IMG/VR virus record: IMGVR_UViG_3300033550_000032
Location: 1 to 25,603 of that record
DNA: 25,603 nucleotides
Direction: 5' to 3' (one strand)
Source of the DNA: a virus
The notes beneath the pieces were generated by a model that did not search any database, was not told where the DNA came from, and saw nothing but the letters and a program-made list of their open reading frames with translations. Shown here piece after piece: positions 2,696 to 24,003 of the stretch (within the stretch, counting starts at the first letter, position 1; every line of letters starts with the position of its first letter). A program made the position numbers and the translations under genes.

Positions 2696-2932
2696 ATGGA
2701 AAAGCGTGTTGTGGCAGTGGGCGACAAGGGCGCCCGGGTCGGGGAGGACCATGGCCGGGCACGGCTCACCAACCACGAGGTGGAGCTGATCCGCCGGCTG
2801 TACGCGGAGGGTGTGAGGTGCGTGGACCTGGCCGAGAAGTTCGAGACGACGAAGTCAACGATCAATGACATCGTGAAGGGCCGGCGGCGGGTGGGCGTGG
2901 CAGTGGGGTGGCGGACAGTGGTTTTGGGGTAG
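2696..2932 (+). CDS. Small helix-turn-helix DNA-binding protein
   Basis: Hypothetical 78-aa protein with one visible domain, a helix-turn-helix at about residues 24-65: LTNHEVELIRRLYAEG, then VDLAEKF, TTKSTINDIVKG and RRR. This is the pattern seen in recombinase-type and HNH-associated HTH domains of phage proteins. No catalytic domain is attached. A strong GGGAGGG ribosome binding site lies 5 bases before the ATG. It sits alone between a terminator and the terminase genes, and its TAG stop (2930-2932) overlaps the first GTACGCATAG motif. It could bind the adjacent repeats (replication) or the recurrent motif (late gene control). The sequence does not tell which. The tail after residue 66 is Gly/Val-rich and may be unstructured. 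Confidence 0.75.
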   Translation: MEKRVVAVGDKGARVGEDHGRARLTNHEVELIRRLYAEGVRCVDLAEKFETTKSTINDIVKGRRRVGVAVGWRTVVLG

Positions 2933-2941
2933 TACGCATAG
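2932..2941 (+). promoter_or_regulatory. GTACGCATAG motif copy 1, before the terminase genes
   Basis: The first of four exact copies of the 10-mer, 29 bases upstream of the TerS start used here (20 from the alternative ATG at 2962). It is followed by CGGCG, as in copy 4. No host-like -35/-10 pair is evident. Likely a promoter or activator site for the packaging genes. Unlike the other copies it is not followed by a strong hairpin. Confidence 0.55.
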
Positions 2942-2970
2942 CGGCGGCTGTGTTTAGCAAAATGCGGGGC

Positions 2971-3465
2971 ATGACTGGACGCCCTAGCACCTTCAAACCC
3001 GAAACAGCCTCGCTGATCTGCGAGCGCATTGCGCGCGGGGAATCCCTTCGGAGTATCTGCAAGGACGATGGAATGCCCGATCAGTCCACGGTGTTCCGTT
3101 GGCTGCGAGATGTGGACGGCTTCCACAAGCAGTACGCGCGAGCGAGAGAAGACCAGGCCGAGCTGTACCTGGACCAGATCATCGAAATCAGCGACGACGG
3201 ATCGAACGACACCTACACGGACGACGACGGCAACAAGAAAACCGACTGGGATGTGATCGCGCGGTCCAAGCTGCGCGTGGACGCCCGCAAATGGGCCATG
3301 TCCAAGCTGGCGCCGAAGAAGTACGGCGAGCGCGTGGCTCAGGAGATCAGCGGCCCTGACGGCGGCCCTATCCCCACCGATGACGCCTCGGCCGCCGCGC
3401 GCCTGGCCAAACTGCTGGCGATCGGCCAGCAGCGCAAGGACGAGGACGACGAGCCGCTGGTATGA
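2971..3465 (+). CDS. terS: Terminase small subunit (Sf6-like)
   Basis: Small subunit of the DNA packaging motor, 164 aa, which binds the phage packaging site and loads the large subunit. Residues 4-46 (RPSTFKPETASLICERIARG then SLRSICKDDGMPDQSTVFRWL) form the N-terminal helix-turn-helix typical of Sf6-type small terminases. A helical oligomerisation part follows (about 52-75) and an acidic linker (75-90). The conserved RVDARKWAMSKLAPKKYG stretch is at about 102-119. The frame is open from 2908, but MTGRPS at 2971 matches family starts; ATG 2962 is the alternative and 2908 would include a non-homologous leader. The stop overlaps the TerL start as ATGA, so the two are translationally coupled. 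Confidence 0.88.
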   Translation: MTGRPSTFKPETASLICERIARGESLRSICKDDGMPDQSTVFRWLRDVDGFHKQYARAREDQAELYLDQIIEISDDGSNDTYTDDDGNKKTDWDVIARSKLRVDARKWAMSKLAPKKYGERVAQEISGPDGGPIPTDDASAAARLAKLLAIGQQRKDEDDEPLV

Positions 3466-5066
3466 GCCCGCAGGAGATCGCCGCCCTGCTGCCCTACCTC
3501 ACCGCTGCAGAGCGCGCCGAGGTGGACGCCATCCTGGCAGCCGACAAAGCCATCTGGCGGCCGCTGCCGGGGCCGCAGATCATGGCCTACCAGTCCGAGG
3601 CCACCATCATCGGCTACGGTGGCGCGGCGGGCGGAGGCAAGACCGATCTAGCCTGCGGCAAGACCCTCACGCAGCACCGTAAGGCGATGATCCTGCGCCG
3701 GGTAGGTACAGAGCTCACCGGCATCAACGATCGCCTGGAGGAGCTTCTGGGCACCAAGGATGGCTACAACGGTAAGGACAACATCTGGCGCATCAAGCGG
3801 CGCGACGGCGTGCCGCTGCAGATCGAGCTCGGCGCCGTGCCCAATGCCGGCGACGAGAAGAAATTCCAGGGCCGCCCGCATGACCTGCTGGTGTTCGACG
3901 AGGCCACGAACTTCCTGATCTCGCAGATCCGCTTCCTGCTCGGCTGGCTGCGCTCCACGGTGGCCGGCCAGCGCTGTCAGGCCCTGTTCACGTTCAACCC
4001 GCCCACCAGCGCGGAAGGCCGTTGGGTGATCGAGTTCTTCGCGCCCTGGCTCGATGACAAGTTCCCCAACCGGGCCAAGCCGGGCGAGATCCGCTACGCC
4101 GCCAGCCTGCCGGCCAGCGCAAACCACCCCAATGGGCGCGATGTGTGGGTCGATGGGCCGGCGCCCTTCGTGCTGGTCGATGGCGAGCCCAGCTACGCCT
4201 TCGACCCGAAGCAGCACGCGCCCGACGACATCATCACGCCGCAGTCGCGCACGTTCATTCCGTCGCGCATCAGTGATAACCCTTACCTGCTGGGGACTGG
4301 CTACATGGCACAGCTGCAATCGCTCCCGGAACCCCTGCGTAGCCAGATGCTCAAGGGCGACTTCGCCGCCGGCATGGAGGACGACCCGTGGCAGGTCATC
4401 CCCACGGCCTGGGTGGAGGCCGCCATGGGCCGATGGAAGGCGCGCACGCCCAAACCCCGCATGGATTCCATGGGCGTGGACGTGGCGCGCGGCGGCAAGG
4501 ACCAGACCGTCATCGCCTGCCGCCACGGCAACTGGTACGACGAGCTGCTGGTCTACCCCGGCACCGAGACACCCGACGGCCCGCGCGTGGCTGGGCTCGT
4601 GATCGCCGCCATGCGCGACCGTGCGCCGGTGCACATCGACGTGATCGGCGTGGGCGCCAGCCCCTACGATTTCCTGCGCCAGGCCGGTCAGCAGGTCACG
4701 GGCGTCAACGTGGCCGAGAAGGCCACCGAGAGCGACAAGTCCGGGCGCCTCGGCTTCTCGAACCAGCGCGCCCAGCTGTGGTGGAAGCTGCGCGAAGACC
4801 TCGATCCGGCCAACGACACGGGCATCGCCCTGCCGTCGGACCAGCGCCTGTTGGCCGATCTGTGCGCCCCGCGTTGGCACCTGCAGGGCCGCACGATCTA
4901 CGTGGAGAGCCGCGAGGAGATCATCGATCGTATTGGGCGCAGCCCGGACTACGCCAGCGCGCTGATGCTGGCCCGGCTGGACACGCCGCGCCGCTCGGAC
5001 CTGCCGGGTACGCATAGGGGCGCGCGCGGTGCGTACGATCCGTACGCAAATCTCACCAAACGCTAA
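3462..5066 (+). CDS. terL: Terminase large subunit
   Basis: Packaging ATPase and nuclease of 534 aa, which docks on the portal, pumps DNA into the procapsid and cuts the concatemer. Walker A is GGAAGGGKT (53-61) and Walker B is LLVFDEA (142-148, D146/E147). A coupling-type motif follows in FTFNPPT. The C-terminal RNase H-fold nuclease shows its first metal-binding Asp in MGVDVARGG (D340) and further acidic residues in IDVIGVG (D393). All key residues seem present, so it should be functional. It overlaps TerS by four bases. The last 20 codons contain a copy of GTACGCATAG (5008-5017) and a hairpin (5030-5048), so the next unit's control region is embedded in its 3' end. Confidence 0.95.
   Translation: MSPQEIAALLPYLTAAERAEVDAILAADKAIWRPLPGPQIMAYQSEATIIGYGGAAGGGKTDLACGKTLTQHRKAMILRRVGTELTGINDRLEELLGTKDGYNGKDNIWRIKRRDGVPLQIELGAVPNAGDEKKFQGRPHDLLVFDEATNFLISQIRFLLGWLRSTVAGQRCQALFTFNPPTSAEGRWVIEFFAPWLDDKFPNRAKPGEIRYAASLPASANHPNGRDVWVDGPAPFVLVDGEPSYAFDPKQHAPDDIITPQSRTFIPSRISDNPYLLGTGYMAQLQSLPEPLRSQMLKGDFAAGMEDDPWQVIPTAWVEAAMGRWKARTPKPRMDSMGVDVARGGKDQTVIACRHGNWYDELLVYPGTETPDGPRVAGLVIAAMRDRAPVHIDVIGVGASPYDFLRQAGQQVTGVNVAEKATESDKSGRLGFSNQRAQLWWKLREDLDPANDTGIALPSDQRLLADLCAPRWHLQGRTIYVESREEIIDRIGRSPDYASALMLARLDTPRRSDLPGTHRGARGAYDPYANLTKR
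5008..5017 (+). promoter_or_regulatory. GTACGCATAG motif copy 2, inside the terL 3' end
   Basis: Exact copy with extended context GGGTACGCATAGGGGCG, 61 bases before the 120-aa gene at 5078. It falls in the final terL codons, so it is kept despite coding constraint. A perfect hairpin begins 13 bases downstream. Confidence 0.55.
5030..5048 (+). promoter_or_regulatory. Perfect hairpin after motif copy 2
   Basis: TGCGTACG (5030-5037) pairs with CGTACGCA (5041-5048) around ATC. The stem contains GTACGC-like sequence, so it also partly resembles the motif itself in both orientations. With no T-run it is not a terminator. It would be near the 5' end of an RNA starting just after the motif. Confidence 0.5.
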
Positions 5067-5077
5067 AGGAGCGGCCT

Positions 5078-5440
5078 ATGTGCGGCCCGGCCGTCGTCCC
5101 CCTCGTTACCGCTGGCATCGCCCTGGCTGGCCAGGTCTATTCGACCAACCAGCAGGAAAAGGCCCAGAACGCCGCCATCGACCGCGACCGCAAGGCGTTC
5201 GATGCGAGCCAGAAGACGCTTGCCGATGCCAACAAGGCACTGGCCAACGTCAACGAGGCCAAGGGCCGCACGCAGCAGGATCTGTCGGCTGCGGCTGGCA
5301 CGGGCACCAACAACCTCGGGTTCCAGAACCAGGGCAGCACGCTCCTGACTGGCTACCAGGGCGTGACCGATCCGCTCTCGCTGTCCGCGCGCCGGCTGTA
5401 CGGCGGCAACAAACCTACGACCCAACTGCTCGGAGCCTGA
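5078..5440 (+). CDS. Small virion-associated-like protein (MC...LLGA type)
   Basis: Hypothetical protein of 120 aa. It starts MCGPAVVPLVTAG with a short hydrophobic stretch (residues 5-20), then a charged, Ala/Gln-rich probable coiled coil (about 25-70), then a Gly/Asn-rich region with STLLTG and a C-terminal LLGA. The N-terminal layout resembles T7 gp14-type ejection proteins, including the gene at 14702 here, but it is shorter. The STLLTG and LLGA elements are shared with the next gene. It has a strong AAAGGAG ribosome binding site and is the first gene after motif copy 2, just before the portal. A minor head or portal-associated role is plausible; no function is assigned. Confidence 0.75.
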   Translation: MCGPAVVPLVTAGIALAGQVYSTNQQEKAQNAAIDRDRKAFDASQKTLADANKALANVNEAKGRTQQDLSAAAGTGTNNLGFQNQGSTLLTGYQGVTDPLSLSARRLYGGNKPTTQLLGA

Positions 5441-5443
5441 GGC

Positions 5444-5491
5444 ATGGACAACCAGCACAAACAAATCGTTCTGAGCCATGTGCGTCGCTAA
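5444..5491 (+). CDS. Possible 15-aa mini-ORF overlapping the next start
   Basis: ATG 5444 opens a 15-codon frame (MDNQHKQIVLSHVRR) ending at TAA 5489-5491, past the ATG at 5478 of the next gene. A GGAG (5431-5434) lies 9 bases upstream, while 5478 itself has only a weak GAG. It may serve to couple translation between the 120-aa and 105-aa genes. Too short to prove as a gene. Confidence 0.25.
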   Translation: MDNQHKQIVLSHVRR

Positions 5492-5795
5492 GATCGCCGA
5501 CCCGGTAGGGGTGTTCAACAACAAGACCACCGCCCGCCTGGCCGACCCGCTGGGGCTGACCGACACGTGGATCGGTGATCCGGCCGACGTGCTGGGCAAG
5601 CGCGCCGCGAAGACGCAGGCCAAGGCCGATGCGCTCGCCGCCGATCAGGCTGCCGCCACGGCGCAGGCCAACCGGCCGCGCCAAGCCAGCAAGGCCCCCG
5701 TGTACGGCCTCGACACCGGCTACGGCGGCGGCGCCTCGGGGTATTCCACCCTGCTCACCGGTTCGGGCGGGGGCGGCACCCTGCTAGGGGCCTGA
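5478..5795 (+). CDS. Small Ala/Gly-rich protein (MC...LLGA type)
   Basis: Hypothetical protein of 105 aa. It starts MCVAKIADPVGVFNNKTT, has a DPLGLTDTWIGDPADVLG segment (about 24-41), an Ala/Gln/Lys-rich probable helix (42-66), and a Gly-rich tail with YSTLLTG and the C-terminal TLLGA. The second-position Cys, the STLLTG element and the LLGA end are shared with the protein at 5078, suggesting two related structural peptides next to the portal. The start has a poor ribosome binding site and may be reached by coupling. It ends just before the portal start. No function is recognised; a minor virion component is the simplest guess from position. Confidence 0.72.
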   Translation: MCVAKIADPVGVFNNKTTARLADPLGLTDTWIGDPADVLGKRAAKTQAKADALAADQAAATAQANRPRQASKAPVYGLDTGYGGGASGYSTLLTGSGGGGTLLGA

Positions 5796-5798
5796 CGC

Positions 5799-7487
5799 AT
5801 GACCGATAACCGGACCAGGATGGACCGCAACGAGATCTACCGTCGCTGGACGGGGCTGGATCTCGACTGGCAGTCGTGGCGTGGCGTCTACCAGGACGTC
5901 ACCGATTTCATGCTGCCGTTCTCGGGCCGCTACTACGACACCGACCGCAACGACGGGCGCAAGCGCTACGGCAACATCTACGACGAGGAAGCCACGTTCG
6001 CACTGAACGTGCTGGCCGCCGGCCTGCAGGCAGGCATGTCGAGCCCGGCCCGGCCGTGGTTTCGGCTGCAGACGGCCGACCCCGAGCTGAACCAGTACCA
6101 CAGCGTGAAGCTGTGGCTGAACGAGTGCACGCGCCGCATGCTGGACCTGTTCCAGCGCTCGAACACGTACAACACGCTGCACACGATCTACCAGGAGCTG
6201 GGCGTCTACGGCACGGCCGCCTCGTTCATGATGGACGACTTCAATACCGTCATCCATCACTACCCGCTCACCACGGGCGAATACCGCATCTCGGCCAACT
6301 ACCGCGGCGAGGTGGACACCCTCGCGCGCCGCTACCAGAAGACGGTCGGCCAGATGGTCAAGGAATTTGGCTACGACAAGGTGTGTCCGTCCACGCAGAG
6401 CCTGTACGACAACCACGAGCTGGACGCCTGGGTGACGATCGTGCAACTGGTCGAACCCAACGCCGACCGCGACCCGTCCAAGCGCGACGCGCAGAACATG
6501 GCGTGGAAATCCTGGTACATGGAGGAAGGCGCCAAGGACGGCCAGTGGCTGCGCAAGAGCGGGTTTGACCGCTTCCCGGCCATCGTGCCGCGCTGGTCCG
6601 TGTATGGCGGCGACATCTACGGCAACAGTCCGGGCATGCTCGTGCTAGGCAGCACGAAGCAGCTCCAGCACGAGCAACTGCGCAAGGCCGAGGGCATCGA
6701 CTACCAGACCAAGCCGCCCCTGCAGGTGCCGACCAGCCTGCAAAACCGCGACGTGCAGATGCTGCCAGGTGGCGTCACGTTCTACGACGCGGCCACCCCC
6801 GGCGCCGGCATCCGCAGCATGTGGGATGTCAGCCTGAACCTGCAGTATCTGCTCAACGACATTGTGGACGTGCGCCAGCGCATTAAGCGCGGCTTCTTCG
6901 TAGACATGTTCCTGAGCCTGTCGGACCCGGCCACCACGCGCATGACCGCCACCGAGGTGGCCGAGCGGCACGAGGAGAAGCTGGTCATGATCGGGCCGAC
7001 GATCGAGCGGCTGCACGATGAGGCGCTCAACCCGCTGGTGGAGTATGCGTTCGACCGCATGATGAGTCTCGGCCTGTTCCCGCCGGCACCCGAGGAGATG
7101 CAGGGGCAGGAGCTCAACATCGAGTTCGTTTCGATGCTGGCGCAGGCCCAGCGCGCCGTCGGCGTGAACAGCACCGACCGCTTCGTGCTCGGCCTAGGCC
7201 AGGTCGCGCAGATTAAACCCGACGTGCTCGACAAGTTCAACGGCGACGAGTGGGTGGACCAGTACGCCGACCAGCTCGGCGTGGACCCCCGCATGATCGT
7301 GGGCAACGAGCAGGTGGTGATGATCCGCCAGCAGCGCGCCCAGCAGCAACAGGCCGCAGCGATGGCGCAGGCCGCCGAGGTGGCCGGCGGCGTGGCCAAG
7401 GACTTGGGCAGCATCAATACCAGCCAGCCCAATGGCCTGTCCGACCTGATCAACCAGTTCAGCGGCTACACCCTTCCTGGAGCCTGA
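5799..7487 (+). CDS. Portal protein (podovirus head-tail connector)
   Basis: The dodecameric portal through which DNA enters and leaves the capsid, 562 aa, close to the usual 530-560 aa of T7 and epsilon15-type portals. The N-terminus has the family pattern IYRRWTGLDLDWQSWRGVYQD followed by TDFMLP, with NVLAAGLQAGMSSPARPWF about residues 69-87 and the central PIVPRWSVYGGDIYGNSPG-like region about 260-275 (here AIVPRWSVYGGDIYGNSPG). MTATEVAERHEEK (about 384-396) is another hallmark. The C-terminus is a Gln/Ala-rich barrel-like helix (about 500-530) ending in a flexible tail. AGGGG precedes the ATG by about 7 bases. A second in-frame ATG at 5820 is possible. Confidence 0.93.
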   Translation: MTDNRTRMDRNEIYRRWTGLDLDWQSWRGVYQDVTDFMLPFSGRYYDTDRNDGRKRYGNIYDEEATFALNVLAAGLQAGMSSPARPWFRLQTADPELNQYHSVKLWLNECTRRMLDLFQRSNTYNTLHTIYQELGVYGTAASFMMDDFNTVIHHYPLTTGEYRISANYRGEVDTLARRYQKTVGQMVKEFGYDKVCPSTQSLYDNHELDAWVTIVQLVEPNADRDPSKRDAQNMAWKSWYMEEGAKDGQWLRKSGFDRFPAIVPRWSVYGGDIYGNSPGMLVLGSTKQLQHEQLRKAEGIDYQTKPPLQVPTSLQNRDVQMLPGGVTFYDAATPGAGIRSMWDVSLNLQYLLNDIVDVRQRIKRGFFVDMFLSLSDPATTRMTATEVAERHEEKLVMIGPTIERLHDEALNPLVEYAFDRMMSLGLFPPAPEEMQGQELNIEFVSMLAQAQRAVGVNSTDRFVLGLGQVAQIKPDVLDKFNGDEWVDQYADQLGVDPRMIVGNEQVVMIRQQRAQQQQAAAMAQAAEVAGGVAKDLGSINTSQPNGLSDLINQFSGYTLPGA

Positions 7488-7488
7488 C

Positions 7489-7746
7489 TTGCCCGACATG
7501 CCGAAATATGAGCGCCCATTCACCGTCTGGGCGCTGCGAATCGCAGAGATCCTGCCGCCCGCCGGCTTTGAAGGTTCGATGCTGATCCCGGCCGACCCGG
7601 AGCGTAGCCCGTTCCCGGTCACGAACGACTTCATCGCCAAGTACAAGCCCGAGCCGGGCGGGTACTACATCCTCTACGCGAACGGCTACCAGACCTACAT
7701 GACGGCCGAGCAGTTCGAGGCCACCTATCGGCTCTCGCAACCCTAG
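7489..7746 (+). CDS. Conserved small head-module protein, TTG start
   Basis: Hypothetical protein of 85 aa, apparently a compact alpha/beta domain: TVWALRIAEILP, IPADPERSPFPVTNDFIAKY, PGGYYILYANGYQTYMTAEQFEATY. No known motif is recognised. The TTG at 7489 is preferred because GGAG (7479-7482) lies six bases upstream, one base after the portal stop; the ATG at 7498 would be 15 bases from it. Its place between portal and Bbp19-like gene suggests a head assembly role conserved in this phage type. That inference is from position only. Confidence 0.72.
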   Translation: MPDMPKYERPFTVWALRIAEILPPAGFEGSMLIPADPERSPFPVTNDFIAKYKPEPGGYYILYANGYQTYMTAEQFEATYRLSQP

Positions 7747-7751
7747 GCGCG

Positions 7752-7761
7752 GTACGCATAG
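7752..7761 (+). promoter_or_regulatory. GTACGCATAG motif copy 3
   Basis: Exact copy in a true 45-base intergenic gap, 31 bases before ATG 7792. The final G of the motif is the first base of the downstream hairpin arm. Lying outside coding sequence, it supports a regulatory rather than coding reason for conservation. Confidence 0.6.
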
Positions 7762-7797
7762 CTCATTGCGACCTATTTAAACTGCCCCGCAATGAGC
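7761..7797 (+). promoter_or_regulatory. Perfect hairpin enclosing the start codon of the Bbp19-like gene
   Basis: GCTCATTGCG (7761-7770) pairs perfectly with CGCAATGAGC (7788-7797) around a 17-base loop. The right arm contains the ATG (7792-7794) of the next gene, and no Shine-Dalgarno sequence is seen before that ATG. In RNA the start codon would be paired; in DNA it is a symmetrical operator-like site. Either would affect expression of the capsid cluster. Confidence 0.6.
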
Positions 7798-8139
7798 CAT
7801 ACCTATGACCCGACCTCGCCGCGAGCCCTCGAAAGGGAGCACCAGCGCCACGCTGAAGTAGAGCAGCGCAAGCGGTTGGCCAAGGCCGAGCGTATCAAAT
7901 GGCTCATGTCCAATCCGCGCGGTCGGCAGGTGATGTGGGATCTCCTGGCAGATGCGAGCCCCTGGGCGCAGACCTTCAGCACGAACGCCATGCAGATGGC
8001 TTTCAACGAGGGTAAGCGCTCAGTTGGGATCGACCTGCTGGCCTACCTCCAGCTGACCTGCCCGGAACGGTATTTCGAGATGCTCAAGGAGCACCAGAAG
8101 AATGAGCGACGCAGCGACGACCGGATCGACACCAACTGA
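7792..8139 (+). CDS. Bbp19-like phage head-module protein
   Basis: A 115-aa protein resembling the Bbp19 family of BPP-1-like phages, as I recall it. The core is VMWDLLADASPWAQTFSTNAMQMAFNEGKR then VGIDLLAYL and CPERYFEMLKEHQ (about residues 44-103). The N-terminal 35 residues are highly charged and helical. Its biochemical role is not known; such genes lie between portal and scaffold. The start codon has no Shine-Dalgarno sequence and is inside a perfect hairpin. Its 3' end overlaps the next gene by 38 bases, implying coupled translation. Confidence 0.8.
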   Translation: MSHTYDPTSPRALEREHQRHAEVEQRKRLAKAERIKWLMSNPRGRQVMWDLLADASPWAQTFSTNAMQMAFNEGKRSVGIDLLAYLQLTCPERYFEMLKEHQKNERRSDDRIDTN

Positions 8140-8794
8140 TCCCGGTGCAGCAGCACCAGCAGCCCCGACGGATGCCACCACGGTCCTGACCGATGGCACC
8201 CAGACGACTGCAACCGAGCAGCAGACGCAGCAGACGGATGCCACGAACGAGGCCAAGCCGGCCGACGGCGACAAACCCGCAGAGGGGGAGAAGCCGGAGG
8301 ACGACAAGCCGCAGGGCGCGCCCGAGGAATACGCCGAATTCACCCTGCCCGATGGCGTGGAGTTCGACGCGGAACTGGGCGGCGACCTGAAGACCTTTGC
8401 CAAAGAGCAGAACCTGTCGCAGGAACAGGCGCAGAAGCTGGCCGATCTCGGTGCCAAGCAACTGCAGAAGTTCCAGGCGGCGCAGGCGGATGCCGTGGCA
8501 CAGGCGCGTGAAGCGTGGCAGAGCGAGGCGCGCGCCGACAAGGAGTACGGCGGCGACAAGTTCGACGAAAGCCTGGCATCGGCTAAGAAGGCCGTGGACG
8601 CTTTCGCTACTCCCGAGCTGAAGACGTTGCTCAACCAGACCGGCCTCGGCAACCACCCGGAACTTATCCGGTTCATGGTGCGGGCTGGGAAGGCGATCAG
8701 TGAAGACCGATTCGACGGCGGGCGCGGCGTTACCACGAGTACCACGCAATCGACGGCGCAGCGGTTGTACGGCAACACCACTTCAAAGACCTAA
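8102..8794 (+). CDS. Putative capsid scaffolding protein
   Basis: A 230-aa acidic protein immediately before the major capsid gene, the usual place for scaffold. Residues 1-75 are low-complexity, rich in Thr, Ala, Asp, Pro, Glu and Lys. A helical part follows (about 95-190): KTFAKEQNLSQEQAQKLADL, then a Gln/Ala-rich coiled-coil region. The C-terminus has PELIRFMVRAGKAISED and ends near AQRLYGN. This acidic, helical, Gln-rich composition is typical of podovirus scaffolds, which direct procapsid assembly and then leave. No protease residues are seen. AAGGAG lies ten bases upstream of the ATG, inside the preceding gene. Confidence 0.75.
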   Translation: MSDAATTGSTPTDPGAAAPAAPTDATTVLTDGTQTTATEQQTQQTDATNEAKPADGDKPAEGEKPEDDKPQGAPEEYAEFTLPDGVEFDAELGGDLKTFAKEQNLSQEQAQKLADLGAKQLQKFQAAQADAVAQAREAWQSEARADKEYGGDKFDESLASAKKAVDAFATPELKTLLNQTGLGNHPELIRFMVRAGKAISEDRFDGGRGVTTSTTQSTAQRLYGNTTSKT

Positions 8795-8806
8795 GGAGCC
8801 ACAACA

Positions 8807-9856: not shown

Positions 9857-9881
9857 CCGCACAAGGACACAGGAGAAAGCC

Positions 9882-10334: not shown

Positions 10335-10345
10335 GGAGGAACGAA

Positions 10346-10543
10346 ATGCGCGTTCGAGCAATTGCCCACGGCTACGCCGGCAAGGATGGCCACGCCTTCC
10401 GCAACCCCGGCGACGAGTTCGAGATCGACGACGAGCAGGCCAAGATTTCCCTGGCCCGCCCGGGCGGCACCTGGTTTGAGCCCGTCGAGAAGCCGAAGGC
10501 ACCGGTACGAGGCAGGCAACAGGACGGCGACGCACTGGCCTGA
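10346..10543 (+). CDS. Small conserved phage protein
   Basis: A 65-aa protein with a strong AAGGAGG ribosome binding site, last gene before a terminator. It starts MRVRAIAHGYAGKDGHAFRN followed by PGDEFEID, then LARPGGTWFEPVEK. This resembles small phage proteins of unknown function that carry an HGY...PGD.F.I...S.WF pattern, possibly a small beta-barrel. The C-terminal 20 residues are basic then acidic and probably disordered. Being in the capsid cluster it may be a minor head protein. No function is assigned. Confidence 0.7.
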   Translation: MRVRAIAHGYAGKDGHAFRNPGDEFEIDDEQAKISLARPGGTWFEPVEKPKAPVRGRQQDGDALA

Positions 10544-11110: not shown

Positions 11111-11114
11111 TGCC

Positions 11115-12174: not shown

Positions 12175-14231
12175 TGGCACAGATCCGCACGCTCGCCCGT
12201 TCCTTCGCCGGTGGGGAGATCAGCCCGGAGATGTTCGGGCGTATCGACCTGTCCAAGTTCCAGACCGGGCTCTCGCTGGCCCGCAACTTCGAGGTCCTGC
12301 CGCACGGACCGGCGCGCAACCGCGCGGGGTTCGCCTTCGTCAACACCACCAAGAACAGCGCGCAGCGCGCGCGGCTGATTCCGTTCAGTTTCAACACGCA
12401 GCAGACGTTTGCGCTGGAGTTCGGCCCCGGGTACATCCGCTTTCACACGCAGGGGGCCACGCTGGAATCGTCCCCGGGCGTGCCGTATGAAGTGGCCACG
12501 CCCTACGCCGAGGCGGATCTGTTCAACATCCACTACGTGCAATCGGCCGATGTGCTGACGCTGGTGCATCCGAACTACCCGCCCGCCGAGCTGCGCCGCC
12601 TCGGCGCGACGAACTGGCAATACACCGTCATCTCGTTCCAGCCTACCCTTCCCCCGCCGGCCGGGGTGGTGGCCGTCCCTACGGGTGTCGGCCCCACCAC
12701 CTACTATTACGCCGTCACGTCACTGGCGCCGGACTCGCTCGACGAGTCGGTGGCCAGCAGCCCGCTTGCGTCCGCAGTGAATGACCTGACCCTGGCCGGC
12801 AATTACAACGAGGTCTCCTGGGGCGCGGTGGCGGGTGCCATTCGCTATAACGTATACAAGATCCGCAACGGGGTGCTGGGCTACATCGGGCAGACCCCGA
12901 ACACGTCGTTCGTGGACGACAACATCGAGGCCGACACCTCGATCAGCCCGCCGAACGCCTCCAACCCGTTCGTGGGCGCCGGCAATTACCCGGCGGCTGT
13001 GTCGTATTTCGAGCAACGCCGCGTGTTCGCCGGCACGAACAACAAGCCCCAGACCGTGTGGGCCACGGTGTCGGGCACCGAACGGAACCTGAATCAGTCG
13101 TTGCCGGTGCAGGACGACGATGCCATCGTCTTCACGATCGCCGCGCGCGAGGTGAACAGCATCCGGCACCTGGTACCACTGACCAACCTGCTGCTGCTGA
13201 CGGCCAGCGCCGAGTGGCGCGTGCAGTCCACCGACTCCGGGGCGCTTACCCCGTCCACGATCAGCGCCCGGCCGCAGAGCTACATTGGCGCGAACCAGGT
13301 ACAGCCGCAGGTGGTGGGCAACCGCATCGTTTATCCGCGCGCGCGCGGCGGCCGGGTGAACGAACTGGCCTACAGCTTCGACGCGCAGGGCTATGTCACC
13401 AACGATCTGAGCCTGCTGGCGCAGCACCTGTTTGACGGGTTCAGCATCGTGGACATGGCGCTGCCCAAGGCACCGTACCAGTTCGCCTGGTTTGTGTCCT
13501 CGAACGGGGATCTGATTGGCCTGACCTACGTGCCCGAGCAACAGGTGGCCGGCTGGCACCACCACGACACCGGCATCGGGGATTCGTTCGAATCGGTGTG
13601 CTCGGTCGGCGAGGGCGACGAGGATGCGGTCTATGTCATCACACGGCGCACGATTGGCGGGCAGACGCGCCGTTTTGTCGAGCGCATGCACTCGCGCCGG
13701 TTCACCTCGCAAGCAGATTGTTTCTTCGTCGATTGCGGCGCCACGTACACCGGTGTTCCGACCAATACGGTGAGCGGGCTGGATTGGCTCAACGGCATGA
13801 CCGTGAATATCCTGGGCGACGGCGCGGTGTATCCGCAGCAGGTGGTCACCGGCGGCACGATCACGCTGGAGGCGCCCGCCATGTGCTCCACGATCACGGT
13901 GGGCCTGCCGATCACGGCGCAGATGCAGACGCTGCCGCTGGCATTTGAGACGCAGGCGTTCGGGCAAGGCCGGCAGAAGAACGTGAACAAGGTGTGGATG
14001 CGCGTGGTGGAGTCGGGTGCGGTGTTCGCCGGCCCGCGCTTCGACGCGCTCAAGGAAACCAAGACGCGCACCACCGAACCGTGGAATTCGCCGCCGTCCT
14101 TGCGGACGTGGCAGGCCGAACTGGTGCTGACCCCGAGCTGGCAGGCCGATGGCAGCGTGTGCATCGAGCAGACCTACCCGCTGCCGGTCACGATTGCGGC
14201 GATGACGATGGAGGTGTCGATTGGCGGGTAA
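12174..14231 (+). CDS. Tail tubular protein B-like (nozzle)
   Basis: A 685-aa protein resembling T7 gp12 and equivalent nozzle proteins, which form the hexameric end of the short tail. The conserved N-terminus is LARSFAGGEISPEMFGRIDL with RNFEVLPHGPARNRAGFAFV (about residues 5-50). An Ig-like or fibronectin-like insertion appears at about 160-255 (TYYYAVTSLAP ... NYNEVSWGAVAGAIRYNVYK). Later parts have YFEQRRVFAGTNNKPQTVW, LLTASAEWRV and YPRARGGRVNELAYSF. The start at 12174 is translationally coupled by TGATG to the adaptor gene; an upstream ATG at 12156 would add six residues not typical of the family. Confidence 0.88.
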   Translation: MAQIRTLARSFAGGEISPEMFGRIDLSKFQTGLSLARNFEVLPHGPARNRAGFAFVNTTKNSAQRARLIPFSFNTQQTFALEFGPGYIRFHTQGATLESSPGVPYEVATPYAEADLFNIHYVQSADVLTLVHPNYPPAELRRLGATNWQYTVISFQPTLPPPAGVVAVPTGVGPTTYYYAVTSLAPDSLDESVASSPLASAVNDLTLAGNYNEVSWGAVAGAIRYNVYKIRNGVLGYIGQTPNTSFVDDNIEADTSISPPNASNPFVGAGNYPAAVSYFEQRRVFAGTNNKPQTVWATVSGTERNLNQSLPVQDDDAIVFTIAAREVNSIRHLVPLTNLLLLTASAEWRVQSTDSGALTPSTISARPQSYIGANQVQPQVVGNRIVYPRARGGRVNELAYSFDAQGYVTNDLSLLAQHLFDGFSIVDMALPKAPYQFAWFVSSNGDLIGLTYVPEQQVAGWHHHDTGIGDSFESVCSVGEGDEDAVYVITRRTIGGQTRRFVERMHSRRFTSQADCFFVDCGATYTGVPTNTVSGLDWLNGMTVNILGDGAVYPQQVVTGGTITLEAPAMCSTITVGLPITAQMQTLPLAFETQAFGQGRQKNVNKVWMRVVESGAVFAGPRFDALKETKTRTTEPWNSPPSLRTWQAELVLTPSWQADGSVCIEQTYPLPVTIAAMTMEVSIGG

Positions 14232-17491: not shown

Positions 17492-20400
17492 TTCGAACCC
17501 GTACCTGTCGCTGGTCCCCTCAGACGATCCCGCCCCGCCGGCGGCCGACGCGACGCAGCAGGCGCTCACCCCCACGCAGCCGCAGGCCAATCCGTACCTT
17601 GCGGTGGTCGATAGCGGTGGCGTGGGCACGCCCGCGCGCATGGCCATGATGCAGGTGGCCGGCACGAACCCGGACGTGGAGGCGCGCATCCAGGCGCTGG
17701 GCAAGCAGTACGGCGTGCCGGCCGAGGCCGTGCGCCTGCAACAACCAGACTATGAGCGCCGATCAACGATTGACGGGATTGATTACGCCAAACTGGCGCA
17801 GGAATCGCCGGCCACGTCGGGCCTGCTGCAGCAGCCGGCCACGGCCGGCATCAGCTACGACGACACCGAGAACCTGAGCGCGATCGAGCGCGCGGTGCGC
17901 TTCCTGGCCGGTACCGGCTCGGCCGCGCTGTCGGCGGTGCCCGCGATCACGTCCGGCTTCTACGGCGTGGTGCAGGCCGGCGCCGAGGGCGCGGCGATGC
18001 TGGCCGAACCGCTGGCCGGCACGATCCTGCCCGAGAACCCGTTCGCGCGCGTCGCGCGCGGCGTGGCCGACTGGCGCCGCGAGCAGGACGCCATTGCCAA
18101 GGGCATGGTGCCCAAGGGGGAGGGGCCGCTTTCGACCGGCTTCTACTCGGGCGTGCAATCCGCTGCACAGACCGGCGCCGCGCTGCTGACCGGCAACCCG
18201 GCCGCCACACTCGGTGCGCTGTCGGCGGTGCAGGGTGGCCAGTCCTACGGTCAGGCGCGCGACAAGGGCATCGCCCCGCTGCAGGCCGCCGCGTTCGGCG
18301 CCTCGCAGGCGGCGATCGAGTACGCCACTGAGAAAATCCCGGTGTCGCGCTTCCTGTCCGACTTCAAGGCAGGCACCCCGTTTTACAGTCTGGTGGCGCG
18401 CCAGATGGCTGCCGAGATCCCGGGCGAACAGGTGGCGACCGCGCTGCAAGACCTGAACGAATGGGCGGTGCTGAACCCGGAGAAGCCGTTCACGTCGTAT
18501 CTGCAGGACCGCCCGAGCGCTGCCGCCACCACGCTGGTGGCCACGATCACCTCGGTGGGTGCGCTGACGGGCGCCGCGCGCGGCGCGCAGGCTGTCGCCA
18601 ACCGCATGCGGGACCGCGAGCAGCAGGCCGCGCAGGCGCAGGCCAATGGTGCGGCGCTGGAGCAGACCGACCAGCTCGCCGCCGCGAACCTCATGCGCCC
18701 GCGTGACGCGGCCACGTTCAACGATTTCATCCGGCAGGCCACCGCCGACGGCCCCGTGCAGGACGTGTACATCGACGTGCCGAGCCTGGCACAGTCCGGC
18801 GTGGACGTGGCGGCGCTGGCCGCCGTGTCGCCGGCGGTAGCGGCGCAACTGCCCGAGGCCACGGCCACCGGCGGCACGATCCGCATCCCGCTGGATGAGT
18901 TCACGACCAACGTGGCCGGGACCGACCTGTCTGCGCCGCTGATCCCGTACCTGAAGACCGACCCGCTGGGCATGAACCAGAAGGAGGCCGAGGAGTTCAT
19001 GCAGTCCGGCGCCGACCAGTTCCAGGCGGAAGTCGAGCGCACGCTCGCCGCGCAGGCGCCGGACGAGGCATTCAAGCAGTCGCGCGACGCGGTGCAGGCG
19101 CGCATCGCCGGCGAACTGGATACGGTCAACCGCTTCACCCCGGCCGTAAACCAGAACTACGCCACGCTGATGGCGAACTTCTACGCGGTGCAGGGTGCGC
19201 GCCTCGGTATCACGCCGGAAGAGATGGCCGCCCGCTACCCGATCCGCTTTGCGCGCGAGGATTTGATCGACGGCGAGCAGCGCCTGGACGAGCATGCACA
19301 AAAAAGCGATACCGGAAAACAGGTATCGCTTACAGCGGACCAAGCCCGACAACAGGTGCTTACCGACACGGAATGGCTCGGAAGTGGCAGCACATCCGCC
19401 GCACTCGGCGGTCGGTGGGCCGCTAATAGTAACTTCATCAAAACGATCCGAAACGGCGATCAGGAAGTCGGGGAAGTGTATGGCGAAGAAGTGCCGGATG
19501 CAGTCATCGTATCGGAATCCCACGTCAACCCCGATCAGCAGGGTAAGGGGCTGGCGCGACAGGCGTACGAGCAGTTAGCGCAATATGCTTTGGCGCAGGG
19601 CAAGGTCTTGCGTAGCGATAGCGCTGTGTCCGAGCAGGCGGCGCAGGTCTATAAGTCGCTGGGCCGGCGCGGCTACACCGTTGAGAAGAACCCGGCCGCA
19701 GTGCTGGAGAATGGCCGCTGGCAGTCCCCGGACAACGCGCCCGTGTTCACTGTATCGGGTACGCCTGCGGTACAACAGGCGCAACAAGTCGACGAGGACA
19801 CCGGCCTACCGCTGAATGCTGACGGAACGGTCACGGTCTACCACCATACCAGTGCGGCCAACGCGGAACGGATTCGGCAGACCGGACGGCTCAAGTCGGC
19901 GGCGGAGCCCGATGTCTACGTGACCACGCGGGCGGAAACCGACACCGGCTACGGCGACACCGTCGTAGCTATCAACGTCGACCCGGCGCTGCTGCAGATC
20001 GACGACGAATTCCCGGACGGGCGCACCGATTACCGCATCGACACTGGCAAGCCGGGCGGCGCAATCCCGGTCAAGTTTCCCGATCAGGTGCGACAGGGCG
20101 AACGTGGCAGCCTGACCGTCCCGGCCGACATCACGCAACAGGCGCCGATCCTGACCCTGCTGGAGAACGCGGACCTGTCCACGTTCCTGCATGAGTCCGG
20201 CCACTTCTACCTGGAGGTGATGTCCGATCTCGCCGCGCGCCCCGATGCGCCGCAGGAGATCCGCGACGACATGGACGCGGTGCTGAATTGGTTTGGCGTG
20301 CCCGATCTCGCCACGTGGCGCGGCATGACGCTGAACGAGCGCCGCGAGCAACACGAGCAGTTCGCGCGCGGCTTCGAGGCGTATCTGTTCGAGGGCAAGT

Positions 20401-23400
20401 CCCCGAGTCAGGAACTGCGACCGGTGTTCCAGCGCTTCCGCGCCTGGCTGGTCAACGTCTATCGCACGCTGGCGCGCCTGAATGTGCAGCTCACCGACGA
20501 GGTGCGCAGCGTGTTCGACCGCATGCTGGCCACGTCCGATGCCATCGCCGAACAGCGTATTCTCGAAGGCGCCATGCCGCTGTTCGAGACGAAGCCACCG
20601 AACATGACGGACGCCGAGTGGACCGGCTACCAGAACCTGAACAACGAGGCGCAGCAGGATGCCCTGCAGACGCTGGAAACGCGCAGCATGCGCGACATGA
20701 AGTGGCTGAACAATGCCCGCAGCCGCGTGCTGAAAGATCTGCAGAAACAGGCCGACAGCGCCCGCGCGCAGGTGCGCAGCGAGGTGGAGGCGGATGTCTA
20801 CGCCACGCCGCTGTACGGCGCCATGCAGTTCCTGCGCCGGGGCACGACCACGGTCAACGGCGAGGCGATCGAGGCCGACGGCAACCATAAGCTGGACATC
20901 GACGCGCTGGCCAACATGTACGGCGGGGAGGGCGACCAGTTCGCGCTGCTCGACTGGAGCAAACTGGGCTACGGCCGCTATGGCATGTTGGGCAAGGAAG
21001 GCATCCACCCGGACACGGCTGCCCAGATGTTCGGCTACACCTCGGGCGACCAGCTGGTGCGCGCGCTGCTCGACGCCGAGCCGGTGGATTCCGTCATCGA
21101 GGGCCTGACCGACGCGCGTATGCTGGAGCGCCACGGCGATCTGACCGACGCGCGCGCCATGTCGCGCGCGGCCGACGAGGCGATCCATAACGACGCCCGC
21201 GCCCGGTTCGTCGCCACGGAACTGAACGCTCTGAACCAGGCCACCGGCCAGCGCAAGATCCTGGCCAGCGCCGCGCGCCAGTTCGCCGACGCCATGATCG
21301 CGCGTCTGCGCGTGCGCGACGTACGCCCGAGCCAGTACACCTCGGCTGAGGGGCGCGCCGCGCGCGCGTCCGAGAAGGCGTTCAAGGCCGGCGACATCGA
21401 GACGGCAGCGCTGGAGAAGCGCAACCAGCTCGTGAACACCTACGCGGCCAAGGCGGCGTATGCGGCGCAGAACGAGATCGCCAGGGGCGTCGACTACCTG
21501 AAGAAGTTCGGCAAGGAATCGACGCGCAAGAGCATCGACCCGAGCTACATCGAGCAGATCGACGGCCTGCTGGAGCGCTACGACCTGCGCACCGGGCAGA
21601 GCCTGCGCGCGATCGACAAGCGCAAGAGCCTGGCCGACTGGGTGAAGGCGCAGGAGGAGCAGGGCCTGGAGCCGGTGATCGACCCGGCGCTGCTGAACGA
21701 AGCCTCGCGCCAGTCCTACAAGGACATGACGGTGGAGGAGCTGCGCGGGCTGGTGGACGCCGTGCGCAACATCGAACACCTGGGGCGCCTGAAGAAGAAG
21801 CTGCTGACCGCCAAAGATCAGCGCGATTTCGAGGAGGCCGCCGGCGCGATCACCGCCAGCATCGAGCAGCACGCCAAGCGCGTGGTGCCCGAGGAGCGCT
21901 CATCCGATCGCGGGCCGCTGGTCAATATCCGCCGCATGTTCAAGGGCTTCACGGCCGAACACCGCAAGTTCGCCAGCATCGTGCGCCAGTTCGACGGTTG
22001 GGAGGACGCCGGCCCGGCGTGGGAATACCTCGTGCGCACGATGAACGACGCGGGCGACTACGAGGCCGTCGAGAACGAGCGCGCCACGAAGAAGCTGGAC
22101 GAACTGCTGCGCCCGATCCTGAAGGACAAGGCGCTGCACCGCAAACAGTTCTTCCCGGAAATTGGCAAGTCGTTTACCAAGGAGGAGCGCCTGGGCATCG
22201 CCCTGAACATGGGCAACGCAGTGAACCGCGAGCGCGTCATGTCCGGCGAGCAACTGAGCAATGCGCAGCTGAACAGCCTGCTCGATACGCTGACCGAGCA
22301 GGACTGGAAATTCGTCCAGGGTGTGTGGGATTACCTCGACTCGTTCCGCCCGGCCATCGCCGCGAAGGAACGCCGCCTGACCGGGCTCGAACCGCAGTGG
22401 GTGGAGGCAGAGCCGGTGCAGACCAGGTTCGGCGAACTGAAGGGCGGGTATTTCCCGATTGCGTACGACCCCTACCGCAGCACGCGGTCGGAAGCGGACG
22501 TGGCGTCCGAGGTGCAGCGCCAGATGGAGCGCGGCCTGTACACCCGTGCGCAGACCCGGCGCGGCCACCTGAAGGCGCGCGCGGAGTCCACCGGCCGGCC
22601 GCTGCGCTACGATCTGGGCGTCGTCACCGGCCACGTGCAGCAGGTCATCCACGACCTGGCATGGCACGAGTACCTGGTGGACGCGAACCGGCTGCTGCGC
22701 AACGGCGGCGTGGACACTGCCGTGCGCCAGCACTACGGCGGCCAGTTCATGACGCAACTGCGCGACACGCTCAAGGATGTGGCCGTGGGCGAGGTGGCTA
22801 CCGACGGCTGGGTGGGCAAGATCCTCAACCACCTGCGTGTAGGCTCGACCATCGCGGGCCTGGGCTACCGGCTTACCACGTCGCTGATGCAGCCCCTCGG
22901 GCTCACGCAGAGCGCGGTGCGCATCGGCTCGAAATGGGTGCTCAAGGGCGCCAGCCACTGGGCCGCCGGTACGGTCGGGCTGGAGAAGGGCATGGCCGAC
23001 ATGTACGAGATGTCGGGCTTCATGCGCCTGCGCTCGCGCACCATGCAGCGCGAGATCAACGAGATCCAGAACCGGGTCAGCGGCAAATCGGAATTCCGTC
23101 AGAAGGTGGACGCCTCCTATTTCTACCTGATCCAGAAGGCGCAGCTGATCGCGGACGTGCCGACGTGGTGGGGCGCCTACGAGAAGGCCATGTCGCAAAA
23201 CGACATGACCGAGGACAAGGCGATCGCACTGGCCGACCAGGCGGTGCGGGACTCGCAGGGCGGCGGCCAGATCGGCGACCTCGCAGCGATCCAGCGCGGT
23301 GGCCCGTTTAAGAAGCTGTGGACGAATTTCTACTCGTTCTTTTCGACCACCTACAACCTGACCGTGGAGGCCGTGGACCGCACTGACTTCAAAAAGTCGC

Positions 23401-23849
23401 GCGACGTGGCGGCACTGGCCGTGGACCTGGCGCTGCTCTACACTATCCCGGCCATCCTCGGCACGATCGTGAAGTCGGCGCTGCACGGCGGCCCAGACGA
23501 TGACGACGAGTTCATCCGCTCGCTTATCGCCGACCAGCTGAACTACCTGTTCGGCACGGTGGTGGGGCTGCGCGAAGTGGCCGCCGCCGTGCAGGGCGCC
23601 ACGGGTCTGTACAGCGACTACGGCGGCCCGGGCGGCGCGCGGTTCTTCGGCGAGCTGGCCAAGCTGGGCAAGCAGGCGGCGCAGGGCGAGGCCGACGAGG
23701 CGTTCTTCAAGGCCATGAACAGCACAGCCGGCATCCTGTTTCACTACCCTGCCGGGCAGATCAACGCCACGGTGCAGGGCCTGAGCGCGCTGGCCGACGG
23801 CAAGACCGAGAACCCCGGCGCTATCCTAGTGGGCGCGCCGCCGAAGTGA
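17484..23849 (+). CDS. Giant polyvalent ejection protein (GNAT-, ART- and metallopeptidase-like segments)
   Basis: A 2121-aa protein likely packed in the virion and injected with the DNA. The N-terminus repeats NPYL (5-8, 36-39), then has a Gly/Ala-rich hydrophobic region (about 135-280). Residues about 610-750 look like a GNAT acetyltransferase, with the CoA-loop pattern QQGKGLARQAY (about 685-695) and YKSLGRRGYTV. Residues about 783-855 (VTVYHHTSAANAERI, YVTTRAETDTGYGDTV) resemble ADP-ribosyltransferase domains of polyvalent proteins. A zincin motif HESGH is at 903-907, with the downstream FARGFEAYLFEGKSPS acidic segment. The next thousand residues are helical, without recognised motifs. 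A membrane-like segment lies near 1980-2003. There is no Shine-Dalgarno sequence; the start overlaps the preceding stop. Domain calls are from motifs only. Confidence 0.82.
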   Translation: MADSNPYLSLVPSDDPAPPAADATQQALTPTQPQANPYLAVVDSGGVGTPARMAMMQVAGTNPDVEARIQALGKQYGVPAEAVRLQQPDYERRSTIDGIDYAKLAQESPATSGLLQQPATAGISYDDTENLSAIERAVRFLAGTGSAALSAVPAITSGFYGVVQAGAEGAAMLAEPLAGTILPENPFARVARGVADWRREQDAIAKGMVPKGEGPLSTGFYSGVQSAAQTGAALLTGNPAATLGALSAVQGGQSYGQARDKGIAPLQAAAFGASQAAIEYATEKIPVSRFLSDFKAGTPFYSLVARQMAAEIPGEQVATALQDLNEWAVLNPEKPFTSYLQDRPSAAATTLVATITSVGALTGAARGAQAVANRMRDREQQAAQAQANGAALEQTDQLAAANLMRPRDAATFNDFIRQATADGPVQDVYIDVPSLAQSGVDVAALAAVSPAVAAQLPEATATGGTIRIPLDEFTTNVAGTDLSAPLIPYLKTDPLGMNQKEAEEFMQSGADQFQAEVERTLAAQAPDEAFKQSRDAVQARIAGELDTVNRFTPAVNQNYATLMANFYAVQGARLGITPEEMAARYPIRFAREDLIDGEQRLDEHAQKSDTGKQVSLTADQARQQVLTDTEWLGSGSTSAALGGRWAANSNFIKTIRNGDQEVGEVYGEEVPDAVIVSESHVNPDQQGKGLARQAYEQLAQYALAQGKVLRSDSAVSEQAAQVYKSLGRRGYTVEKNPAAVLENGRWQSPDNAPVFTVSGTPAVQQAQQVDEDTGLPLNADGTVTVYHHTSAANAERIRQTGRLKSAAEPDVYVTTRAETDTGYGDTVVAINVDPALLQIDDEFPDGRTDYRIDTGKPGGAIPVKFPDQVRQGERGSLTVPADITQQAPILTLLENADLSTFLHESGHFYLEVMSDLAARPDAPQEIRDDMDAVLNWFGVPDLATWRGMTLNERREQHEQFARGFEAYLFEGKSPSQELRPVFQRFRAWLVNVYRTLARLNVQLTDEVRSVFDRMLATSDAIAEQRILEGAMPLFETKPPNMTDAEWTGYQNLNNEAQQDALQTLETRSMRDMKWLNNARSRVLKDLQKQADSARAQVRSEVEADVYATPLYGAMQFLRRGTTTVNGEAIEADGNHKLDIDALANMYGGEGDQFALLDWSKLGYGRYGMLGKEGIHPDTAAQMFGYTSGDQLVRALLDAEPVDSVIEGLTDARMLERHGDLTDARAMSRAADEAIHNDARARFVATELNALNQATGQRKILASAARQFADAMIARLRVRDVRPSQYTSAEGRAARASEKAFKAGDIETAALEKRNQLVNTYAAKAAYAAQNEIARGVDYLKKFGKESTRKSIDPSYIEQIDGLLERYDLRTGQSLRAIDKRKSLADWVKAQEEQGLEPVIDPALLNEASRQSYKDMTVEELRGLVDAVRNIEHLGRLKKKLLTAKDQRDFEEAAGAITASIEQHAKRVVPEERSSDRGPLVNIRRMFKGFTAEHRKFASIVRQFDGWEDAGPAWEYLVRTMNDAGDYEAVENERATKKLDELLRPILKDKALHRKQFFPEIGKSFTKEERLGIALNMGNAVNRERVMSGEQLSNAQLNSLLDTLTEQDWKFVQGVWDYLDSFRPAIAAKERRLTGLEPQWVEAEPVQTRFGELKGGYFPIAYDPYRSTRSEADVASEVQRQMERGLYTRAQTRRGHLKARAESTGRPLRYDLGVVTGHVQQVIHDLAWHEYLVDANRLLRNGGVDTAVRQHYGGQFMTQLRDTLKDVAVGEVATDGWVGKILNHLRVGSTIAGLGYRLTTSLMQPLGLTQSAVRIGSKWVLKGASHWAAGTVGLEKGMADMYEMSGFMRLRSRTMQREINEIQNRVSGKSEFRQKVDASYFYLIQKAQLIADVPTWWGAYEKAMSQNDMTEDKAIALADQAVRDSQGGGQIGDLAAIQRGGPFKKLWTNFYSFFSTTYNLTVEAVDRTDFKKSRDVAALAVDLALLYTIPAILGTIVKSALHGGPDDDDEFIRSLIADQLNYLFGTVVGLREVAAAVQGATGLYSDYGGPGGARFFGELAKLGKQAAQGEADEAFFKAMNSTAGILFHYPAGQINATVQGLSALADGKTENPGAILVGAPPK
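19304..19331 (+). repeat. Perfect 10-bp hairpin inside the giant gene
   Basis: AAGCGATACC (19304-19313) pairs perfectly with GGTATCGCTT (19322-19331) around GGAAAACA, preceded by an A-run. It marks the left edge of a segment with lower G+C and less biased codons, containing the GNAT-like domain. The hairpin is within codons about 607-616 and may be a relic of a terminator or an insertion junction. Confidence 0.55.
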
Positions 23850-23939
23850 TCAGCGCAGGATCAGCTTGACGATCTCGATTCCGAAACCGATAAGGGTGGC
23901 GATGATCGAGATCGGTACAGCGATTCCCATGTCTTTCAT
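23850..23939 (-). CDS. 29-aa single-pass membrane peptide on the opposite strand
   Basis: The only convincing - strand gene. ATG at 23939 reads MKDMGIAVPISIIATLIGFG and continues IEIVKLILR to a TGA ending at 23850. Residues about 5-28 form one hydrophobic segment, flanked by Lys/Asp and by a C-terminal Arg. AGGAGA (23949-23944) is four bases before the ATG. A sigma70-like promoter (TTGACT, 16 bases, TATCGT) lies just upstream. The stop abuts the stop of the giant gene (23849) in convergent orientation. The size and form recall type I toxin peptides or small phage membrane and lysis peptides. No sequence family is recognised; the function is unknown. Being too short for usual gene calling, it is easy to miss. 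Confidence 0.65.
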   Translation of the reverse strand: MKDMGIAVPISIIATLIGFGIEIVKLILR

Positions 23940-23949
23940 GATTTCTCCT

Positions 23950-23987
23950 GTTTAGCGTAACGATACAGCAACTGCTAAACAAGTCAA
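23950..23987 (-). promoter_or_regulatory. Sigma70-like promoter with operator-like palindrome for the 29-aa peptide
   Basis: On the - strand, TTGACT (23987-23982) and TATCGT (23965-23960) are separated by 16 bases. A perfect 7-bp inverted repeat, GTTTAGC (23980-23974) and GCTAAAC (23956-23950), brackets the -10 box, one arm in the spacer and one at the expected transcription start, directly before the ribosome binding site. This is a typical repressor operator geometry. Confidence 0.55.
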
Positions 23988-23993
23988 GCCCGG

Positions 23994-24003
23994 GTACGCA
24001 TAG
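23994..24003 (+). promoter_or_regulatory. GTACGCATAG motif copy 4, before the tailspike gene
   Basis: Exact copy with context GGGTACGCATAGCGGCG, 50 bases before the GTG start at 24054. It is divergent from and adjacent to the - strand promoter. The next perfect hairpin begins three bases after it. Confidence 0.6.

Follow-up and report, generated by a model that had tools for sequence, protein, structure and literature searches.

Described regulators and the analyzed locus

In the middle promoters of phage T4, a MotA box around −30 stands in place of the −35 element, the −10 element is an ordinary one and sigma appropriation takes place (PMC6755090). This work concerns a comparable arrangement in the IMG/VR record IMGVR_UViG_3300033550_000032 (hereafter the window), which was analyzed as the complete virus record and is itself a fragment of 25,603 bases. 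The word GTACGCATAG occurs in the window four times, and its first copy touches the end of a gene for a 78-aa helix-turn-helix (HTH) protein. Analysis of the window and its relatives makes it highly probable that the four words are activator boxes of four activator-dependent late promoters, read by this fast-evolving phage protein.

Like T4 MotA, the HTH protein would read a box that replaces the −35 element (here at −39 to −29) with a normal −10 element below it. However, MotA consists of two domains and targets middle genes, whereas the window protein is a small trihelical domain and the genes in question are late genes, with a box and a protein that vary between phages. No match of the window protein to the MotA family was found in Pfam or PHROGs. 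An AsiA-type partner was not present among the families found in G001, the nearest relative of the window, in which several small proteins have no family. The HTH–box system appears to resemble MotA in its logic, with another protein family.

The late regulators RinA and ArpU of phages of Gram-positive bacteria are encoded directly before terS and act on packaging and virion genes. Similarly, in 107 of the 114 loci that extended far enough, a small HTH gene was located directly before terS and no more than 1.8 kb ahead of terL. None of the 25 Pfam families listed for 34 members of the HTH family is of the RinA/ArpU type and, unlike RinA/ArpU, the present system includes four or five dispersed promoters with one box, a fixed distance to the −10 element and other hosts. 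The DNA-binding domain of Hin/Tn3-type serine recombinases (HTH_7, PDB 1ijw) is a trihelical HTH as well, but the phage protein has no catalytic domain and, by inference, binds single asymmetric promoter boxes.

The window was assigned, by sequence comparison, to a BPP-1-like (Rauchvirus-type) podovirus genome. Its large terminase subunit (TerL) showed 58% identity to that of the Bordetella phage BPP-1 across 99% of its length, and the PHROG families of the window genes agree with this assignment. The gene order and the four promoter places are the same in both phages, but the box is GGTGCCCGTGC in BPP-1 and GGTACGCATAG in the window, and Bbp27, the BPP-1 homologue of the HTH protein, carries Lys at the position where the window protein carries Asp. 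No description of the BPP-1 late promoters or of the function of Bbp27 was found in the open-licence literature.

Relatives were gathered using four TerL queries, a search of bacterial genomes and named phages. The nearest of those found, G001 (43,830 bases), has a TerL that is 87% identical to that of the window, and the DNA of the late genes is 77–79% identical. One of the relatives, Limnohabitans phage DC33 (PQ492659.1; L129), is recorded as a member of Inoviridae, yet its 39-kb sequence is that of a BPP-1-like tailed phage, with GGTACCCGTAT-16-TAGATT upstream of the Bbp19 gene.

The repeated word and the predicted late promoters of the window

All four exact copies of the word (2932–2941, 5008–5017, 7752–7761 and 23,994–24,003) are on the plus strand. 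In dinucleotide-preserving shuffles of the sequence, the mean number of copies was 0.02 and no shuffle reached four, so the preliminary description, made from the window alone, was right to regard the repetition as far above chance. Its placement of the copies before gene starts also holds: copy 1 shares one base with the stop codon of the HTH gene (TAG 2930–2932), copy 2 is in the 3′-terminal part of terL, and the other two copies are intergenic, in the gaps that precede the Bbp19-like gene and the tail fibre gene, respectively. The next start codon follows the word at a distance of 29 nt (TerS, ATG 2971), 60 nt (ATG 5078), 30 nt (ATG 7792) and 50 nt (GTG 24,054). The extended contexts of the copies match as had been noted, but the functional unit is predicted to be an 11-mer beginning at 2931, 5007, 7751 and 23,993 together with a −10 hexamer that starts 27 nt past the start of the box. 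The features concerned are as follows:

2696..2932, plus strand: 78-aa HTH protein, homologous to Bbp27 and proposed to be the late activator; PHROG HTH profiles, Pfam, AlphaFold2 and covariation
2931..2941, plus strand: predicted late promoter A, box AGTACGCATAG, −39 to −29
2958..2963, plus strand: predicted −10 hexamer of promoter A, CAAAAT; the TerS ATG at 2971 is 7 nt past the hexamer
2971..3465, plus strand: terminase small subunit (TerS); PHROG 1482 and promoter position
3462..5066, plus strand: terminase large subunit; promoter B lies within its 3′ end
5007..5017, plus strand: predicted late promoter B, box GGTACGCATAG, within terL
5034..5039, plus strand: predicted −10 hexamer of promoter B, TACGAT, which doubles as the TerL Tyr-Asp codons
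5078..5440, plus strand: 120-aa protein 3′ of promoter B; leader and ribosome-binding site present
7751..7761, plus strand: predicted late promoter C, box GGTACGCATAG
7778..7783, plus strand: predicted −10 hexamer of promoter C, TAAACT; the Bbp19 ATG at 7792 is 8 nt past the hexamer
7792..8139, plus strand: Bbp19-like protein, whose gene opens the capsid operon; PHROG 528
23,993..24,003, plus strand: predicted late promoter D, box GGTACGCATAG
24,020..24,025, plus strand: predicted −10 hexamer of promoter D, AACAAT; the tail fibre/tailspike GTG is at 24,054

The terS start was moved to ATG 2971; the mechanical open reading frame (ORF) begins at 2908. A weaker variant of the word at the primase start, which had been suggested earlier, was dropped as a fifth site: it lacks the invariant G at box position 2 and has CCCCGA in the −10 place. 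A palindromic operator was also rejected (mean self-complementarity of the box 0.46). Finally, a widespread 16-mer, GGTACGCATAGNGGCG, was found in 39 viral contigs with a single exact match in each and without a second 10-mer in the examined stretches, and it was therefore not assigned to this regulon.

Concerted change of the box in related phages

The exact 10-mer of the window was absent from 19 related records, because the boxes change in concert. G001 contains its own word, GGTGCACWTAACG, at all four homologous places and nowhere else in its 43.8 kb. When the window and G001 boxes were aligned (GGTACGCATAGCG versus GGTGCACATAACG), three positions differed, and they differed identically at all four sites. 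In BPP-1, an exact 13-mer, GGGTGCCCGTGCC, precedes bbp26 (terS), bbp24 (after terL), bbp19 and bbp9 (tail fibre); its 12-mer core, GGTGCCCGTGCC, has exactly four exact copies in the 42.5-kb genome, in those four places only. On the minus strand of the BPP-1 record the boxes start at 26,294, 24,132, 20,747 and 6185, and 27 nt downstream of these starts are the predicted −10 hexamers AAAACT, TACTGT, TAGAGT and TAGCCT; leaderless mRNAs are predicted for bbp26, bbp24 and bbp19. In the same genome (NC_005357.1, 33,240–33,552), bbp36 (VR2) contains 24-bp tandem repeats, and each of them holds GGTGGCCGTGCC, one mismatch from the 12-mer core, a likeness that is perhaps a coincidence.

At the family level, 78 non-redundant loci were examined for one 11-mer common to the three reachable places, in comparison with random triples of regions from the same locus. 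The test was passed at p ≤ 0.12 by 27 loci (chance expectation about 9), and in many of these the boxes were identical at all three places. Examples of the variants that distinguish the phages are CGTTCACATAC, CGTAACCATAC, GGTGCACGTAC, CGTGTCCGTGG and GGTGCGCGTGA. The family-wide box is NGTNNNCNTNN, with G2 in 81/81, T3 in 77/81, C7 in 78/81 and T9 in 81/81 sites.

Copies of a phage's own box scattered inside genes would speak against a promoter function, and the relatives were searched for them. No such scattering was seen: large contigs contained four or five copies each (range 3–5), located at late gene starts, with one off-strand exception. Four copies were found in G020, G021, G026, G028 and BPP-1 (records of 42–47 kb) and five in G023 and G039, on the late-gene strand only; G037 carries five copies and one more on the opposite strand without a −10 hexamer. 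The copies precede terS, the gene that follows terL, bbp19 and the tail fibre gene and, in some genomes, also a gene for a protein of about 200 aa, which by its place resembles an internal virion protein.

Layout of the predicted promoters

The boxes were found and aligned without the use of downstream sequence, and the −10 region was examined afterwards (81 sites in 27 loci). The pattern NANNNT was present exactly 27 nt from the box start, i.e., after a 16-nt spacer, in 70 of the 81 sites; the mean for other offsets was 2.5 and the next highest offset, −3, gave 26 sites. The stricter TANNNT occurred at +27 in 49 sites, and the hexamer has the composition of a sigma70-type −10 element (T56 A70 n A41 A39 T76). 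Several of the sites without a hexamer at +27 have a 17-nt spacer instead. At site B the hexamer is often TACGAT, which also encodes Tyr-Asp of TerL. The match to a TTGACA-like −35 element 15–19 nt 5′ of the −10 element was at the chance level (mean best match 2.77 versus 2.68 at random positions); thus, the box, which covers −39 to −29 as counted from the −10 element, occupies the −35 place.

The start codon lies 6–8 nt past the −10 element at 27/27 terS sites and 6–10 nt past it at 27/27 bbp19 sites. With initiation about 7 nt past the −10 element, this spacing means that the terS and bbp19 mRNAs would begin at or near the start codon, and they should be leaderless or nearly so, with the start codon at about +1 to +5. 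In G001 (reverse orientation, 13,251–13,577) an approximately 108-aa ORF that contains a GIY-YIG-like sequence lies between promoter A and terS and occupies the near-leaderless start position.

The same layout bears on two other explanations. The HTH protein could bind the boxes as a repressor, so that they would be autorepressor or late-repressor operators over host-driven promoters. The −35 region is a frequent place for an operator, and site A lies against the end of the HTH gene or overlaps it. Nevertheless, we consider this unlikely: with TTGACA at the chance level the promoters should be weak unaided, every site belongs to a late virion or packaging operon, and the genomes already contain a separate CI/Cro pair.

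A second explanation, that the boxes are promoters for a phage-specific RNA polymerase or sigma factor, is very improbable. Contiguous conserved words before late genes that change in concert within a genome do recall phage-polymerase promoters. However, a separate sigma70-like −10 element at 16 nt is unlike the promoter layout of single-subunit polymerases, and neither the family matches of G001 nor the annotation of BPP-1 included an RNA polymerase or sigma family; G001 encodes a DNA polymerase, a single-stranded DNA-binding protein, an exonuclease, a helicase and a repressor/Cro pair. The preliminary description had likewise seen no phage RNA polymerase in the window, but it placed the recogniser elsewhere or took it to be a host factor with an activator. 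The leading candidate lies at copy 1 itself, in the HTH gene touched by it, whose product would act with the host RNA polymerase.

The HTH protein and its covariation with the box

In the loci studied, the HTH gene usually ends at site A (median distance −10 nt). An AlphaFold2 model of the window protein (mean predicted local distance difference test score 87) showed a trihelical HTH flanked by two strands, with helices at residues 26–37, 42–48 and 53–60; the last is the recognition helix and residue 58 is Asp. The protein was matched by PHROG HTH profiles. Pfam HTH_7/HTH_38 matched 25–27 of the 34 family members (HTH_7: 25/34, best E-value 1.6e-07, the window's own protein being under the curated cut-off), and some members matched sigma region 4. 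The fold matches, all with weak E-values, include the Hin DNA-binding domain 1ijw (template modeling score 0.79 by target length, E-value 0.59); matches to designed repeat proteins among solved structures were discarded as repeat artefacts. No catalytic resolvase domain or other extra domain was found in the 78 aa. PHROG profiles named "HNH endonuclease" do match the HTH part of the protein, but BLASTP revealed no similarity to the HNH endonuclease encoded by G001, which is at most a possible ancestor. The label "endonuclease" for bbp27 in NC_005357.1 and "recombinase family protein" for the homologue in Acinetobacter phage 4316 both refer to just small HTH proteins.

Links between protein residues and box bases were expressed as mutual information in bits, as raw z-scores across all proteins were inflated by nearly invariant columns. 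Among 41 distinct helix/box pairs, box base 6 was linked most strongly to HTH residue 58 (1.23 bits), compared with at most 0.54 bits for the best-scoring columns of TerS, TerL, the portal protein and Bbp19. Over all 51 helix/box pairs, Asp was accompanied by G in 13/13 cases, Lys or His by C in 24/26 and other residues (Arg, Tyr, Leu, Asn) by A in 11/12. Asp to cytosine and Lys to guanine are the usual contact chemistry, and this would fit a protein that reads the opposite strand. Base 6 changed at least 14 times on the TerL tree and, in independent pairs differing in G6 on supported branches, Asp agreed in 6/6 (p = 0.031, the lowest value that six pairs can give); the window and G001 (Asp/G versus Tyr/A) are one such pair. 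As a hold-out, previously unused loci were scanned with a pattern that left base 6 free (random control regions matched in 1.5%), and the predicted base was found in 16/16 tabulated loci with an HTH gene, representing 11 different helices. A second link, for which there are less data, may join residue 57 to base 4: Gln/Asn is accompanied by A, Gly/Arg by G and Cys by T. Overall, the 78-aa HTH protein, Bbp27 in BPP-1, is the best candidate for the recogniser of the box. The idea of a phage-specific promoter or activator site, put forward earlier, gains from this covariation as well as from the same gene starts in relatives, the concerted change within genomes and the fixed −10 element.

If the box and the −10 element were read directly by the host RNA polymerase and a sigma factor of the host, without a phage activator, box variety would reflect host variety. 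The −10 element is of the host type and the hosts vary, but the box repeatedly tracks a residue of the phage HTH protein, on independent branches, and the window and G001, whose late genes are 77–79% identical in DNA, differ at three box positions; this explanation is even less probable than a phage polymerase. A role of the words in antitermination, packaging or recombination, in place of promoter activity, is scarcely credible: hairpins follow some copies (24,007–24,048 in the window) and an HTH is also present in TerS, but the 16-nt spacing to the −10 element and the start-codon spacing at sites A and C are fixed, there are 4–5 copies per genome, and TerS covaries weakly with base 6 (best column 0.40 bits).

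Proposed mechanism of late activation

It is proposed that the HTH activator is made early, from the strand that also carries primase. It would bind the asymmetric 11-bp box NGTNNNCNTNN (GGTACGCATAG in the window) at −39 to −29 and recruit the host sigma70-type RNA polymerase to a −10 element that has no −35 partner. This would switch on terS–terL, the portal region, the bbp19–capsid–tail operon and the tail fibre gene and, in some relatives, a fifth operon. The activator may contact sigma region 4 or another polymerase subunit, or may take the place of region 4. The recognition helix and all boxes of one genome shift together, and residue 58 would read base 6. The sequences show the box positions, copy number, concerted change, fixed −10 spacing and covariation, and we infer binding, positive action, a dependence on host sigma70 and the transcript 5′ ends. 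Activation rather than repression is preferred because the −35 element is missing and the targets are late genes.

Several observations weigh against this scheme. The HTH protein is small and has no obvious activation domain, and occupancy of −39 to −29 would suit a repressor as well. The base-6 rule was broken in 3 of 51 helix/box pairs, and the independent-pairs test was not significant for Lys/His-C versus A alone. The 48-locus covariation set includes loci obtained with a pattern that required the −10 hexamer, although base 6 was left free. In addition, L132, L011 and some other relatives have the HTH gene and no box matching the patterns used.

Hairpins and repeats near the predicted promoters

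Promoter D sits in a hairpin with 15-bp arms (24,007–24,021 and 24,034–24,048), and its −10 hexamer spans the end of the 5′ arm and the loop. The matching place in BPP-1 (L127, 36,309–36,365) contains CCCCTGGGGAAG..CTTCCCCAGGGG followed by five T and is terminator-like. Neither hairpin was listed by a simple terminator scan with a loop of up to 8. Transcripts of promoter D would begin in the loop and escape the terminator-like hairpin.

A terminator-like hairpin (2654–2673) and a 23-nt inverted repeat, GGTGGTAAGGGTGGTAAG (2543–2659), separate primase from the HTH gene, and the proposed activator may therefore be under a control of its own. A sigma70-like promoter, TTTACA-17-TAGCAT, was found 5′ of primase (89–117), and G001 has one at the homologous place. 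It is surrounded by GTTTAGC/GCTAAAC words, which are repeated near several late promoters in the window and G001 and are possibly repressor operators.

Significance for BPP-1 and its relatives

For BPP-1, which serves as the model phage of diversity-generating retroelements, the present result offers the positions of four promoters, their probable start sites and, in Bbp27, a candidate activator. If the natural protein–promoter pairs are mutually specific, they are possible independent switches for laboratory gene circuits. There is also a broader generalization, which at present we would sooner doubt than assert: family-wide, a stand-alone HTH protein may act as a surrogate of sigma region 4 that alone reads the −35 place of late, partly leaderless promoters, while the protein and its four or five boxes repeatedly switch together under a residue-to-base code (residue 58 with base 6 and probably residue 57 with base 4). 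The phage family represents a natural experiment on the joint change in specificity of a regulator and several promoters.

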